DNA of 64,000 bases from Eubacteriales bacterium. GTDB lineage: Bacteria; Bacillota; Clostridia; Acetivibrionales; JANLFN01. The notes under the pieces are model-generated. The model saw only the letters and a program-made list of their open reading frames with translations. It was not told the DNA's origin and made no database searches. The DNA is taken from NCBI GenBank assembly GCA_024655885.1, contig JANLFN010000004.1, positions 62,001 to 126,000 of the forward strand. The letters are read 5' to 3'. How positions within the stretch are numbered: the stretch's first letter is position 1; each line of letters starts with the position of its first letter. The position numbers were made by a program, and so were the translations under genes. Shown here in pieces: positions 33,146 through 60,419 of this stretch.

Positions 33146-34891
33146 TTAAACCGTTTTATCAAATTTCTCAATCCCTCCGCCAAACCGTTTTATTGAATTT
33201 CTCAATCTCTCCGCCATTTCGGTCAGCTGAGTTGCCGATGTGAAAATTTCCTGCATTCCTGCCGTCTGCTCTTCTATCGCAGCCGCAATATCTTGGGTTT
33301 CACCGGAGGACTCTCTGGCGATATTGGCAATATCTTTGCTCATTTCCTCCACCTTTTTGATCTCGTCCACCATTTTTTCTATCTCACCGTTGATTTCCTT
33401 AACCTGGGCGTCCACGTCTTCACTGTTTTTAACAATCTGCTGGAAGGAAGCACGGGCCTGCTGTGCCATCTGTGTGCCTTCCAAAACCTCCTTAACGCCG
33501 GCGGCCATACTGGCCGAAACCTGCTGCGCTTGAGTCTGAATCTCTTTCAGTATGCTTGTGATCTCCTTTGCCGCACTGGCGGTGCTCTCCGCAAGCTTGC
33601 GTATTTCTTCTGCCACAACCGCAAAGCCTTTGCCGTGCTCACCTGCTCTTGCCGCCTCTATGGCCGCATTCAATGCCAGGAGGTTGGTCTGGGAAGCAAC
33701 TTGGGTAATGGTTTCAAGAATCCGCCTGATTTCACCTGAGCGCCTGTTCAATTCCTCGGACACCGATTGGGCGGCGGTTATTTTTTCTGAAATAACTCCG
33801 ATCTGATTCAAAAAGCTCCTCATTTTTTCATAGCCTAAAACTGCAGCCTGAGTGGCTTTTCCCGATGTGGACAGCACCTTGTTTACGTTTCCATATATCT
33901 TTTTATTCCCCTCATATAACTCATTCACCAATTCGACGGTTTTTTCGGATTGTTTTGTCTGGTTTGCAGCCCCGTCCGAAACCTGCTGCACCGAAGCGGC
34001 AATCTGCTCAATAGCCTTTGTGTTCTGCTCCACCCCTGCTTTCAGGTGCTGGGCATAATCGGCAACCCCCATGCTGCTTTCGGTGATGCTTTCTATAAGC
34101 GAACGGAGATTGTCGCGCATCTGGTTAAAAACGTGAGACAGGCCGTGCATATCGTCATAGGCGCCGGCTTCTGCAGTTTCACCGCTCAATTCTCCTTCCG
34201 TAATGCTCTGAGCATAAAGTGCCACTTTTCTTATCATGCCTCCGATACGCCCTGAAAGAGTAAACGCAGCAAACATACCGAGAGCGGCTACAGCAACTGT
34301 GATTGCCAGCACAATACCGCCGGTCCAGTTCGCTTTCCTGTCAAGCTCTCCCTTCACCTTCTCTTGAAGGGCCAGCTGGCCGGAAATCAATGCATCTGCC
34401 GAACTCCTTACGGCCTCTTGCATCTGCTCTGCCTTCCCGCTTTCCTCCGCTGCCGTTTCGAAATTATTACTCTGGACAGCCTTCAGGGATTTGTCTACCG
34501 CTTCAAGATATGAATCACACAGCCTCTGGAGAGCGCTAAAATCCGCATTTTCCTTTCCGTTGGAGAGTCCGGCATTCTTCTTTAATAATGTCAGGCTATT
34601 TTTAATCTTATCCATCCCTGCTTGAATGGATTTCTGATTTTCCGCTTTTTTTTCCCCGATGGCTTTCTTCAGGTCAGCATTTACCTGCTGAGCCGTATTT
34701 GCTATGGAATTAGTCAAGACGGCAGCTTCAACCGCACTGTCGTATTTTGATATATAAGACTTCAGCGCAAAAAATGCATACAGGCCTGCACATAAAATTA
34801 AAGCGATGGTAACCGAAAATGCTAGAATTATTTGTCTTTTTAACGACGCAACTGTTTTTTCATCTTTGAATAACTTACGGAAGAATATCAT
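33146..34891 (-). CDS. Methyl-accepting chemotaxis protein
   Basis: Transmembrane chemoreceptor of about 581 residues. An N-terminal membrane helix (about 17-40) and a second near 190-210 bracket a helical extracytoplasmic four-helix-bundle-like sensor; a HAMP region follows, then a long signalling hairpin with the conserved tip [20 protein letters not shown]. The ATG nine bases after GAGGAG is preferred over one that abuts it. No other chemotaxis gene is nearby, so it is an orphan receptor; ligand unknown. Confidence 0.92.
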
Positions 34892-39439: not shown

Positions 39440-39515
39440 GCTGAGATATTCGCTCTGCGAATGCCGAGCTTCTTGCTCTTCAAGGCCGAGATATTCATTT
39501 CACAAATGCTGAGAA
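39440..39515 (-). repeat. Mini-hairpin array, second copy (rpsG-fusA spacer)
   Basis: Three hairpin units at 39448, 39471 and 39493 (spacing 23 and 22), with GCTGAG or GCCGAG linkers on the plus strand. The first unit is identical to one in the ilvD-ilvB array (ATTCGCTCTGCGAAT). In the third, the minus-strand RNA still pairs through two G-U wobbles (ATTTG/TGAAT). Confidence 0.75.
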
Positions 39516-39537: not shown

Positions 39538-39553
39538 TCTCAGCCCTCAGCCT
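39538..39553 (-). repeat. GGCTGAG heptamers behind the rpsG stop
   Basis: Minus strand reads AAAGGCTGAGGGCTGAG directly after the rpsG stop codon. This is the same heptamer repeated many times behind ilvD. Confidence 0.65.
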
Positions 39554-52965: not shown

Positions 52966-54633
52966 CTATTCCTCTATCAATTCACTAATAGGCGCACCCG
53001 GGGGTACAATAGGAAATACCTTGTCGTCCCTGTCAATCTCAAAATTGATCAAGACCGGCGTGTCCTCCGACTCCAGGGCCTTAATAATGGCGGCGTCCAC
53101 CTCTTCAGGCCTTGTCACGTTTATGCCCTTTGCGCCGAAGGCTTCCGCCAGGGCTACAAAATCCGTGCCCCTGTCTATGGTTGTGGCGGAGTACCTGCCG
53201 TCATAGAACAGCTCCTGCCACTGTCTCACCATTCCCAGCACGTGGTTGTTCAGCAGGGCAATGACAATGGGCAGCTTGTATTCCACTGCCGTGGCAAGCT
53301 CGGTGCAGTTCATCCTAAAGCTTCCGTCCCCCGCGATATTGATCACCTTCTTGTCCGGCCTCCCTATACGGGCGCCGATGCATGCCCCCAGCCCGTACCC
53401 CATGGTGCCCAGTCCTCCTGATGAAATAAACTGCCTGGGAGAAGTGTACTTGTAAAACTGTGCCGCCCAAAGCTGGTTCTGGCCGACTTCGGTAGTGATC
53501 AGCGCATCGCCTTTTGTGAGCTCGTAAATCCGCTCTACAACATAATGAGGCTTCAGAGTGCCGTCCTGCGGATACTTGAGAGGGTAGGCCTCCTTCCACC
53601 GGTCAATGGTCTTATTCCATTCGGAGTATTCCCTCTTTTTAACCCTCCCATTCAGCAGCTTGAGTATTTTCTTGATATTCCCCACCAGGGGATAGTGCAC
53701 CACAATATTCTTGCCCACTTCCGCAGGGTCTATGTCTATGTGCATGACCTTTGCATTGGGAGCAAACCTCTTCACATCGCTGATGACCCTGTCGCTGAAC
53801 CTTGCTCCTACCGCTATGAACAGGTCGGACTCGGACACAGCCAGGTTGGAGGTCTTGGTCCCGTGCATTCCCAGCAGCCCCGTAAACAGCCCGTGGGTCC
53901 CGGGAAAGGAACCAAGTCCCATCAGAGTGGTGGTGACGGGAATTTTTGCTTTTTCCGCAAGCTCCATGACTTCCTCGGTGGCCCCTGCGATGGATACGCC
54001 TCCGCCCGACAGCAGGATGGGCCTTTGAGAGCTGTTTATAGCTTCCGCAGCCTCTTCTATCAGGCCTTCGGCAATGCTGGTATGGACCTTGCGGGGTTTT
54101 CTTGGAGGTTTGGGTTCAAAATCCGTTACTGCAGCCGTTACGTCCTTGCATATATCGATAAGGACCGGACCCGGCCTCCCTTCCTGCGCAATGGCAAAAG
54201 CCTTGCGCACAACATCCGCCAGTTGGGTTACATCCTTTACAATATAGTTGTGCTTGGTTATGGGCATGGTGATGCCCGTAATGTCAACCTCCTGGAAGGA
54301 ATCCTTTCCCAGCAGGTTTGTGGCCACCTGCCCCGTAATTGCCACCATAGGCACCGAATCCATATAAGCCGTGGCGATGCCCGTCACCAGGTTGGTAGCC
54401 CCCGGGCCCGATGTGGCGATGCACACTCCCACCTTTCCCGTAGCCCTGGCATAGCCGTCAGCCGCGTGGGAGGCCCCCTGTTCGTGGGACGTGAGAATAT
54501 GCCTTATTTCGTTCCTGGCCTTGTAAAGGGCGTCATAGATGTTTAAAACAGCGCCTCCCGGAAACCCGAAAACCGTATCCACTCCCTGTTCCTTCAAACA
54601 TTCCACCAATATTTCTGAACCGTTCAGCCTCAT
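52966..54633 (-). CDS. ilvB: Acetolactate synthase, large (catalytic) subunit
   Basis: Thiamine-diphosphate enzyme of valine, leucine and isoleucine synthesis. The 555-residue protein has the catalytic-glutamate region (FGFPGGAVLNIYDALY and LTSHEQGASHAADGYARATG), an FAD-type middle domain, and the cofactor motif starting GDGSFRMN and ending NN near residue 460. GGGGAGATG precedes the ATG. It follows ilvD; no ilvN regulatory subunit is next to it, which is unusual for the anabolic enzyme. A repeat element lies between ilvD and ilvB. Confidence 0.95.
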   Translation of the reverse strand: MRLNGSEILVECLKEQGVDTVFGFPGGAVLNIYDALYKARNEIRHILTSHEQGASHAADGYARATGKVGVCIATSGPGATNLVTGIATAYMDSVPMVAITGQVATNLLGKDSFQEVDITGITMPITKHNYIVKDVTQLADVVRKAFAIAQEGRPGPVLIDICKDVTAAVTDFEPKPPRKPRKVHTSIAEGLIEEAAEAINSSQRPILLSGGGVSIAGATEEVMELAEKAKIPVTTTLMGLGSFPGTHGLFTGLLGMHGTKTSNLAVSESDLFIAVGARFSDRVISDVKRFAPNAKVMHIDIDPAEVGKNIVVHYPLVGNIKKILKLLNGRVKKREYSEWNKTIDRWKEAYPLKYPQDGTLKPHYVVERIYELTKGDALITTEVGQNQLWAAQFYKYTSPRQFISSGGLGTMGYGLGACIGARIGRPDKKVINIAGDGSFRMNCTELATAVEYKLPIVIALLNNHVLGMVRQWQELFYDGRYSATTIDRGTDFVALAEAFGAKGINVTRPEEVDAAIIKALESEDTPVLINFEIDRDDKVFPIVPPGAPISELIEE

Positions 54634-54658
54634 ATTATCATCTCCCCATGGTTTTCAT

Positions 54659-54856
54659 CACGCTTGCCCCGCAAAGCGAAGCAGTATGCTCCGCGAGGTT
54701 GAAGATTCGCTCTGCGAATGCTGAGCCTCTTGCTCCGCAAAGCTGAGATATTCGTTTCGCGAATGCTGAGATGTTTGTTTCACAAACGCAGAGATATTTA
54801 CTGCTTAAATGCTGAATTCCTGGCCCTGCCAGGCTGAGCCTATTTACTGCATAACC
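54659..54856 (-). repeat. Tandem mini-hairpin array, 22-23 bp period
   Basis: About nine units. The best start at 54705, 54728, 54750, 54773, 54796, 54819 and 54842. Plus-strand units are ATTCGCTCTGCGAAT, a CTTGCTCCGCAAAG form, ATTCGTTTCGCGAAT, GTTTGTTTCACAAAC, ATTTACTGCTTAAAT and CCTGGCCCTGCCAGG, each followed by a GCTGAGAT-like linker. Stems differ between units but most keep self-complementarity; linkers stay constant. Two eroded units extend to the ilvB side. Confidence 0.85.
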
Positions 54857-54861
54857 GGTTT

Positions 54862-54951
54862 CTCTCAGCCCCTCAGCGCTCAGCCCCTCATCTTCCTCAG
54901 CCTCTCAGCCTTTTTCAGCTCCTCAGCCCCTCAGCCTTCTCAGCCTTTTCA
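54862..54951 (-). repeat. GGCTGAG heptamer tract behind ilvD
   Basis: Plus strand shows eight exact CTCAGC cores and two degenerate ones within 90 bases, spaced 7-16 bases apart by pyrimidine-rich sequence. On the minus strand it starts a few bases after the ilvD stop. It lies on the 5' side of the hairpin array. Confidence 0.85.
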
Positions 54952-54955
54952 ACTC

Positions 54956-56620
54956 TCAACTATTTTTCATCACCGCTCCCGTACTGGCCGAGGACACCAG
55001 CCGGGCATACCTTCCCAGGTAACCTTTGGCAATCCTGGGCTCAGGAGCCCTCCACTCCGCCATTCTTCTCCTGATCTCATCCTCGGGCACCTCCACATCC
55101 AGCCTTCCGTTGGGGATATCAATGCTCAGCATATCCCCTTCCCGGACGGCGGCAATAGGTCCGCCTTCCATGGCCTCAGGGGAAACATGCCCTATGGAAG
55201 CGCCCCTGGACGCACCTGAAAAGCGGCCGTCGGTGATGAGAGCCACATCCTTGTCCAGTCCCATGCCCGCAATGGCGGAGGTGGGACCCAGCATTTCCCT
55301 CATGCCGGGCCCTCCACGGGGTCCCTCGTAGCGGATGATGACAATGTCCCCCTTGTGGATTTGACCGCCGTAGATGGCTTCAATGGCGGTGTCCTCCGAA
55401 TCAAAAACCCTTGCCGGCCCCCTGTGCACCAGCATTTCCGGCGCCACGGCGGAGCGCTTCACCACGGCGCCGTCCGGGGCGATATTCCCCCTTAATATGG
55501 CAATGCCTCCCGTCGCGCTGTAGGGGGCGTCTATGCTCCGTATGACCTCACGGTCCAGCACTTCCGCCTTTTCTATGTTTTCACCCACCGTTCTTCCCGT
55601 AACGGTCATCAAATTGAGGTGCAGCAAGTCCTTCCGCGCAAGTTCCTTCATCACCGCCTGCACTCCCCCCGCGGCATACAGGTCCTGTATGTGGTGAGGC
55701 CCTGCCGGTGCCAGCCTGCAGAGGTTTGGAACCCTGGCGCTGATTTCGTTTACGATATCCAGGTTTATTTCAACCCCCACCTCATTGGCGATGGCAGGCA
55801 GATGCAGCACCGAATTGGTGGAGCAGCCCAGGGCCATATCCACGGTAAGGGCGTTTTCAAACACCTCAGGCACCAGGATATCCGATGGCTTTATGTCTTT
55901 TTCCACCAGCTCCATGATTTTCATGCCGGCGGTTTTGGCCAGCCGGATCCTCTCCGCATAAACCGCGGGAATGGTCCCGTTGCCGGGCAGTCCCAGTCCC
56001 AGCACCTCCGTCAGGCAGTTCATGGAATTTGCCGTAAACATGCCCGAGCATGAACCACACCCCGGACAGGCATGGTCCTCATATTCATGCACCTCTTCCT
56101 CGGTCATCTTCCCCGCCTTGTACGCCCCGACGGCTTCAAAAAGGCTGTTCAGGTCCAGCTGCTTTCCTTTATGCCTGACCGACAGCATGGGACCTCCGCT
56201 GACCACAATGGAAGGCACATTGATCCTGGCCGCAGCCATCAGCATGCCCGGCACAATCTTATCGCAGTTGGGGATGAACACCATGCCGTCAAACCCATGG
56301 GCTATGCCCATGGCCTCACAGGAGTCCGCGATCAGCTCCCGCGTGGCCAGGGAATACTTCATGCCCACATGTCCCATGGCAATCCCGTCGCACACCCCTA
56401 TACACCCGAATTCCACGGGAGTGCCTCCCGCCGTCCGGATGCCCGCTTTTACCGCTTCCGCTATTTTGTCCAGGTGGATGTGCCCGGGTATAATCTCACT
56501 CTTGGAATTCACCACACCGATAAGGGGCCTTCGGATCTCCTCGTCGGTATAGCCCATAGCCTTGAACAGCGACCTGTGGGGCGCCTTTTCAATTCCTTTT
56601 TTTACAATATCGCTTTTCAT
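54956..56620 (-). CDS. ilvD: Dihydroxy-acid dehydratase
   Basis: Iron-sulfur dehydratase of branched-chain amino acid synthesis. The 554-residue protein has the cluster cysteines in [12 protein letters not shown] and [20 protein letters not shown], plus [19 protein letters not shown] near the C-terminus. GTGAGG precedes the ATG. It is the first gene of the ilvD-ilvB pair. No T-box was seen upstream. Confidence 0.96.
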
Positions 56621-60083: not shown

Positions 60084-60419
60084 CTATTTAATCTTTTTTA
60101 GCTTTTGCTCGGTATCCGTCTTGAATTCCATCAAATCAGCCACAGCGTCAGACAAAATATCAAGTTTTTTATCCACTTGATTGAACCTGTTATTTACCTG
60201 GATTTCAAAAGACTGCAGCTTATCGCTAAGACTTAATTGCCCCATCTCCAGGTTGTGCTGGCCTTCTTCAAGATTTTGCAAACGGGATTCCATGCTTTGC
60301 TGCCCTTTTTCAAGGTTCTGCAAACGGGATTCCATGCCTTGCTGCCCTTTTTCAAGGTTTTGCTGGCCTTGCTTCAAATCTTTCAGTTCGGTAAGAATCT
60401 GCTTTAATATTTCCTCCAT
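60084..60419 (-). CDS. Coiled-coil protein with 14-residue tandem repeat
   Basis: A 111-residue, almost wholly helical protein. After an N-terminal helix (MEEILKQILTELKDLKQGQQ) come two near-identical copies of LQNLEKGQQxMESR and a third diverged copy, then a second coiled-coil stretch (VNNRFNQVDKKLDILSDAVA). GGAGGG precedes the chosen ATG; the upstream extension is rejected. Function unknown; the repeats suggest recent expansion. Confidence 0.75.
   Translation of the reverse strand: MEEILKQILTELKDLKQGQQNLEKGQQGMESRLQNLEKGQQSMESRLQNLEEGQHNLEMGQLSLSDKLQSFEIQVNNRFNQVDKKLDILSDAVADLMEFKTDTEQKLKKIK
60277..60360 (-). repeat. 42-bp tandem duplication inside the coiled-coil gene
   Basis: Two copies starting TGCAAACGGGATTCCATGC exactly 42 bases apart with few differences, encoding the 14-residue protein repeat in frame. 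Slippage here would change coil length without breaking the frame. Confidence 0.85.

Follow-up and report, generated by a model that had tools for sequence, protein, structure and literature searches.

The array of small hairpins located between ilvD and ilvB is best read, with a probability of about 0.55, as one copy of a lineage-specific structured composite repeat that is dispersed, and propagated by copying, in the spacers between co-directional genes. It lies in a window of 64,000 nt (the whole stretch of DNA analysed here), where no other chain of four perfect hairpins spaced at 20-25 nt occurs. The frame of this repeat consists of two inverted arms of short directly repeated words, with GCTGAG following the stop codon of the upstream gene and CTCAGC preceding the ribosome-binding site of the downstream one, and in many copies mini-hairpins of 13-15 nt lie between successive words of the 3' arm, giving the 22-23-nt period. 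Whole composite blocks were copied into the spacers of unrelated genes, and the units would multiply in tandem within the arrays. The hairpin may be retained for its usefulness as a structure, or it may be something that the copying process requires or generates in single-stranded DNA or RNA. In the predicted mRNA fold the linkers pair with the 5' arm and the hairpins are displayed as side branches. If operon expression is affected, for instance through protection of the upstream message or spacing of translation, this would be a secondary effect. If this is true, hairpin mini-repeats within arrays of short words are not peculiar to cyanobacteria, having also arisen or been maintained in a second phylum. 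Furthermore, about a dozen loci in known, partly essential operons would make a compact system for asking how repeats shorter than 30 nt are propagated and whether the operons they enter are expressed differently.

Structure of the ilvD-ilvB spacer

Re-reading of the sequence confirmed the array described before at the stated place; it has six units at 22-23-nt spacing and two degenerate hairpins reaching to about 54659. In the minus-strand transcript the order is GCTGAG arm, joining segment, six units, two decayed hairpins and ilvB, as follows:

54634-54955, minus strand: whole ilvD-ilvB spacer (322 nt) with the composite element; the genes on either side were identified as ilvD and ilvB
54864-54944, minus strand: 5' arm, in which GCTGAG occurs eight times, the words separated by a few bases that are mostly purines; it reads as the reverse complement of the linkers further down the transcript
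54839-54863, minus strand: joining segment AGAAACCGGTTATGCAGTAAATAGG, common to the argC-argB (L181) and nuoF-type (L182) spacers
54817-54838, minus strand: unit 1, CTCAGC + CTGGCAGGGCCAG hairpin + GAA
54794-54816, minus strand: unit 2, TTCAGC + ATTTAAGCAGTAAAT + AT
54771-54793, minus strand: unit 3, CTCTGC + GTTTGTGAAACAAAC + AT
54748-54770, minus strand: unit 4, CTCAGC + ATTCGCGAAACGAAT + AT
54726-54747, minus strand: unit 5, CTCAGC + TTTGCGGAGCAAG + AGG
54703-54725, minus strand: unit 6, CTCAGC + ATTCGCAGAGCGAAT + CT
54659-54702, minus strand: two degenerate hairpins with decayed linker, ending near the ilvB ribosome-binding region (by eye and predicted fold)

The units start, in minus-strand reading, at 54838, 54816, 54793, 54770, 54747 and 54725, and each consists of CTCAGC, or a one-base variant of it, followed by a hairpin of 13-15 nt. 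The preliminary description was right in considering the linker conserved, but this is more than a mere linker, being the reverse complement of the GCTGAG octamer array found directly upstream in the transcript, which had been omitted. Actually, the hairpins make up the 3' half of a larger element, whose 5' half is a purine-rich octamer array, (GCTGAGRR)n, located just past the upstream stop codon. In the predicted RNA fold several GCUGAG words pair with the CUCAGC linkers. Hairpins of 15 bases had been described, mostly with a 5-bp stem and a loop of five; for the majority a 6-bp stem with a triloop is the better reading, the triloop being of the GNA type in 13 of the 18 units of the 17-nt class that are true hairpins.

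No intrinsic terminator, with a G+C-rich stem and a T run after it, was found within the array. Rfam matches to the spacer region (54500-55000) were all far below gathering scores, ruling out a known Rfam RNA family for the element, and at the other element loci only tRNAs were matched.

Copies in other operons

The survey of the genome from which this DNA comes (3.44 Mb) was built from searches and from stretches extracted around the matches. It gave 24 matches to the ilvD-ilvB spacer, 45 GCTGAG triples and, with the covariance-model search that had been proposed, about 30 hairpin units at roughly a dozen loci. Nearly all loci fall, like ilvD-ilvB itself, inside co-directional operon pairs, in agreement with the position between operon genes given previously. 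These regions were chosen for holding matches and their gene starts were called mechanically, so the orientation within co-directional spacers can be interpreted while the share of such spacers cannot. The flanking genes are probably co-transcribed. Arrays of the main type were found in 12 co-directional spacers, including rpsG-fusA, argC-argB, mnmE-mnmG and a walR-walK-like pair, as well as spacers before cobA/hemD, in hemB-hemL and ddl-murI, and one upstream of a nuoF-type gene. The rpsG-fusA copy is also in the window:

39440-39513, minus strand: second array, four linkers and three hairpin units between rpsG and fusA (genes identified); a 67-nt part is 87% identical to the array of ilvD-ilvB
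39539-39551, minus strand: 5' arm of the rpsG-fusA element, two GCTGAG words

Long blocks are common to the spacers of unrelated gene pairs, namely 223 nt at 76% identity between two loci (L178 and L180), 167 nt at 77% between argC-argB and ilvD-ilvB, and 118 nt at 85% between argC-argB and the nuoF-type spacer, indicating that the composites have a common ancestry and were copied between spacers. As read from one genome of the genus, these blocks show the composites to have spread within the genome by whole-block copying. The variable number of units suggests, in addition, that units multiplied in tandem within the arrays. CTCAGC words were found both with and without hairpins between them, and other subtypes of 15-nt hairpin share the CTCAGC linker (loci L178, L190, L191, L194 and L196).

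The orientation of the element is consistent. In all 12 array spacers the sense strand has the GCTGAG arm first and the hairpins after it, and the GCTGAG triple is in sense in 18 of the 20 co-directional spacers having one, starting at a median of 13 nt past the stop codon. This consistency exceeds the needs of a purely neutral repeat, a point against the copying reading, although common descent of the blocks could explain it. Together with the operon setting, it argues for some link with transcription.

Short palindromes clustered between genes, in a genome with six Y1-type transposase genes, could also suggest an element of the REP/REPIN type that owes its mobility to a RAYT transposase. We consider this very improbable and reject the link on tag, orientation and transposase flanks: every unit is tagged with CTCAGC or a near variant, not with GTAG or CGTC, all units are head-to-tail, and mini-hairpins are present in the flanks of none of the six transposase genes, several of which have AGAACCGTCCCC-type words instead. 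No enzyme could be linked to the element, the six Y1-type genes having other flanking repeats, and this also speaks against the copying reading.

Some minor features were found during the survey. The AGAACCGTCCCC/GGGGACGGTTCT words present at several of the Y1-type (RAYT-like) genes (flanks L272, L273, L276 and L277) look like their own cognate repeats, and are absent from the 64-kb window. A second intercistronic module, GGTTGYAGAAGGGCTCTGGAGAAGAGCAAGGTTAAGG, with a 5-bp mini-hairpin of its own, follows the GCTGAG arm in many copies (L176, L178, L179, L180, L197 and L198), and in L176 a rough reverse complement of it, CAACCTTAACCTTGAAC, appears downstream. One contig of 113 kb (C7, carrying L176-L180) holds 25 of the 45 GCTGAG triples, around heme biosynthesis and other genes.

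Stem pairing and folding

The stems keep their self-complementarity while their sequence changes, so the hairpin itself is kept. Units for the covariation analysis were picked by the linker alone (CTCAGC on both sides, one mismatch allowed), giving 40 units with 39 distinct inserts from 17 co-directional spacers, with a few evident chance matches left in the set. The mean stem was 4.74, compared with 3.31 after swapping 5' and 3' halves between units (maximum of 3.77 in 500 swaps), and units picked in this way from the antisense strand showed no stem excess. Within the 17-nt class the covariation score was 0.527 versus 0.311 in shuffled units, a value reached by none of 500 shuffles, with 92% of the cells paired and changes on both sides in five of the six pairs. 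These values bear out the stem covariation claimed by the preliminary description, which named as decisive against it a lack of copies elsewhere, or stem changes disrupting pairing as frequently as they preserve it; clearly, copies do exist in the genome and pairing is kept.

The same covariation had also been taken as proof of selection for RNA structure, and this part is not supported. Departures from pairing were about equally G-U (8) and A-C (7), a comparison of low power; RNA-level selection is expected to tolerate G-U more, so this near equality argues against a proven RNA role. Folding of the spacers relative to shuffles gave a mean z of -2.1 in sense and -2.8 in antisense, with -1.4 (sd 2.3) in array-free control spacers, and this lack of any advantage of the sense strand likewise argues against a proven RNA role; folding energy does not discriminate as a test of RNA function. 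Furthermore, the copying of composites as blocks means that neither units nor loci are independent of one another, so that probabilities obtained from counting them carry less weight.

After copying with hairpin retention, the most likely reading, comes a functional intercistronic mRNA structure, which we regard as a tentative alternative. Here a branched GCUGAG/CUCAGC stem with its hairpins would block exonucleases or the movement of ribosomes or Rho, setting the ratio of upstream to downstream product. The position between genes of conserved operons, from close to the stop codon toward the ribosome-binding site and in one orientation, is consistent with it, as are the predicted fold of the ilvD-ilvB spacer, better than 99 of 100 shuffles, and the fact that no terminator-like or promoter-like site was found within the array. 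It is opposed by the antisense strand folding equally well, by array-free spacers being also below their shuffles on average, and by G-U being no commoner than A-C. Besides, some copies have only the 5' word, with no 3' arm to pair with, and the arrays are not conserved in the same operons of relatives. An mRNA role for the element is possible.

The near equality of G-U and A-C departures also fits a decay from perfect hairpins with no strand-specific selection. This is what would be expected from a by-product of replication, in which template switching at imperfect inverted repeats perfects both sides of the stem simultaneously and slippage multiplies the units, with neither selection nor mobility. 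GNA triloops closed by a C-G pair form unusually stable DNA hairpins, another point in its favour. However, a by-product alone leaves unexplained both the blocks of 100-220 nt common to distant unrelated spacers and the consistent orientation, and we rank it third, as an unlikely origin.

Comparable repeats and related genomes

A literature search for the repeat words themselves found nothing. The preliminary description knew of no named repeat class with this layout, which is partly wrong, since short-word arrays and hairpins within heptamer arrays are known, mainly from cyanobacteria. The closest counterpart in kind, likened by description, would be the small dispersed repeats (SDR) in heptamer arrays of Nostoc. 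In Nostoc punctiforme and relatives these are reportedly hairpin-forming units of 21-27 nt whose stems carry compensatory changes; they are said to lie often within runs of tandem heptamers and to be inferred as mobile. The 22-23-nt period found here fits that unit length, the hairpin is likewise supported by compensatory changes, and it is also embedded in tandem short words (CTCAGC). In contrast, the present element belongs to a genome of Clostridia type, its embedded word is an octamer in inverted arms, and its units are in tandem at 22-23 nt, with several hairpin subtypes sharing one common linker. The SDR work of Elhai et al. 2008 (Genome Res. 18:1484) is cited in PMC3116915 and PMC6513891.

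As for plain word arrays, tandem heptamers oriented toward genes have been described as TAACTGA repeats in Beggiatoaceae, with no structure predicted for the repeat on its own (PMC4679880), and heptamer arrays with such an orientation are also described in Xanthomonas (GGGAATC) and Nostoc (PMC4692102). They resemble the element in their intergenic words of 7-8 bp, their consistent orientation toward genes in some species and the post-transcriptional role proposed. The STRR, tandem heptamer arrays of cyanobacteria, share this likeness; all three (STRR, TAACTGA and GGGAATC) are simple direct arrays, whereas here the arms are inverted and there are hairpins between words. REP elements have alternative complementary stem residues (PMC3733652), and with the REP/BIME/REPIN group (PMC3733652, PMC3116915) the element shares this feature, the clustering of short palindromes between genes and a possible stabilisation of mRNA. 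It differs in having no GTAG/CGTC tag or RAYT association and in its head-to-tail units, versus inverted dimers.

In six relatives, all belonging to other genera, the ilvD-ilvB spacer (inspected by eye) has at most about 65 nt and no array. The rpsG-fusA spacer ranges from 52 to 203 nt across the order, so that with 164 nt its length here is not unusual, while its sequence is. The GCTGAG array was absent from 57 other genomes of the order, and a search for hairpin units found none in 290 other genomes of the class. In 667 kb of three relatives (G001, G003 and G004) chains of at least three tandem perfect hairpins showed little or no excess over shuffles. A search of the phylum found GCTGAG triples in 17 further genomes, those listed consisting largely of plain runs of the hexamer or of lone matches. 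A mobile carrier was rejected, with no match to the element in plasmids and phages and none to the unit pattern in viral contigs.

The comparison with a sister genus (G001) covers one other genus of the family and a handful of spacers. Its rpsG-fusA spacer has inverted arms AATTGAC/AATTGAG ... CTCAATT/GTCAATT, and other spacers have GTTGAG/GTTAAG ... CTCAAC/CCGAAC, all without mini-hairpins. Judging from this handful, the inverted-word frame seems to be common to the family with differing words, and since the same layout is built there with other words, the frame seems older than the present ones. One could go further and imagine, as a reading that we find doubtful, a modular intercistronic RNA scaffold, in which inverted word arrays flank the operon junction and the 3' arm shows interchangeable mini-hairpins at a fixed period, words and hairpins drifting fast between genera while the architecture is kept; it would be a general device for tuning or stabilising polycistronic messages in this bacterial family.

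The words of the inverted arms in the G001 spacers (L243, L208 and L214, rpsG-fusA included) are 7-8-mers of the types AATTGAN, GTTGAG/GTTAAG and GGAGTT. Back in the window, two other tandem repeats were detected, one at 33148-33216 with two copies of a 34-nt unit (91% match) and one at 60256-60370 with a 42/21-nt unit (2.6 copies of 42, 90% match).
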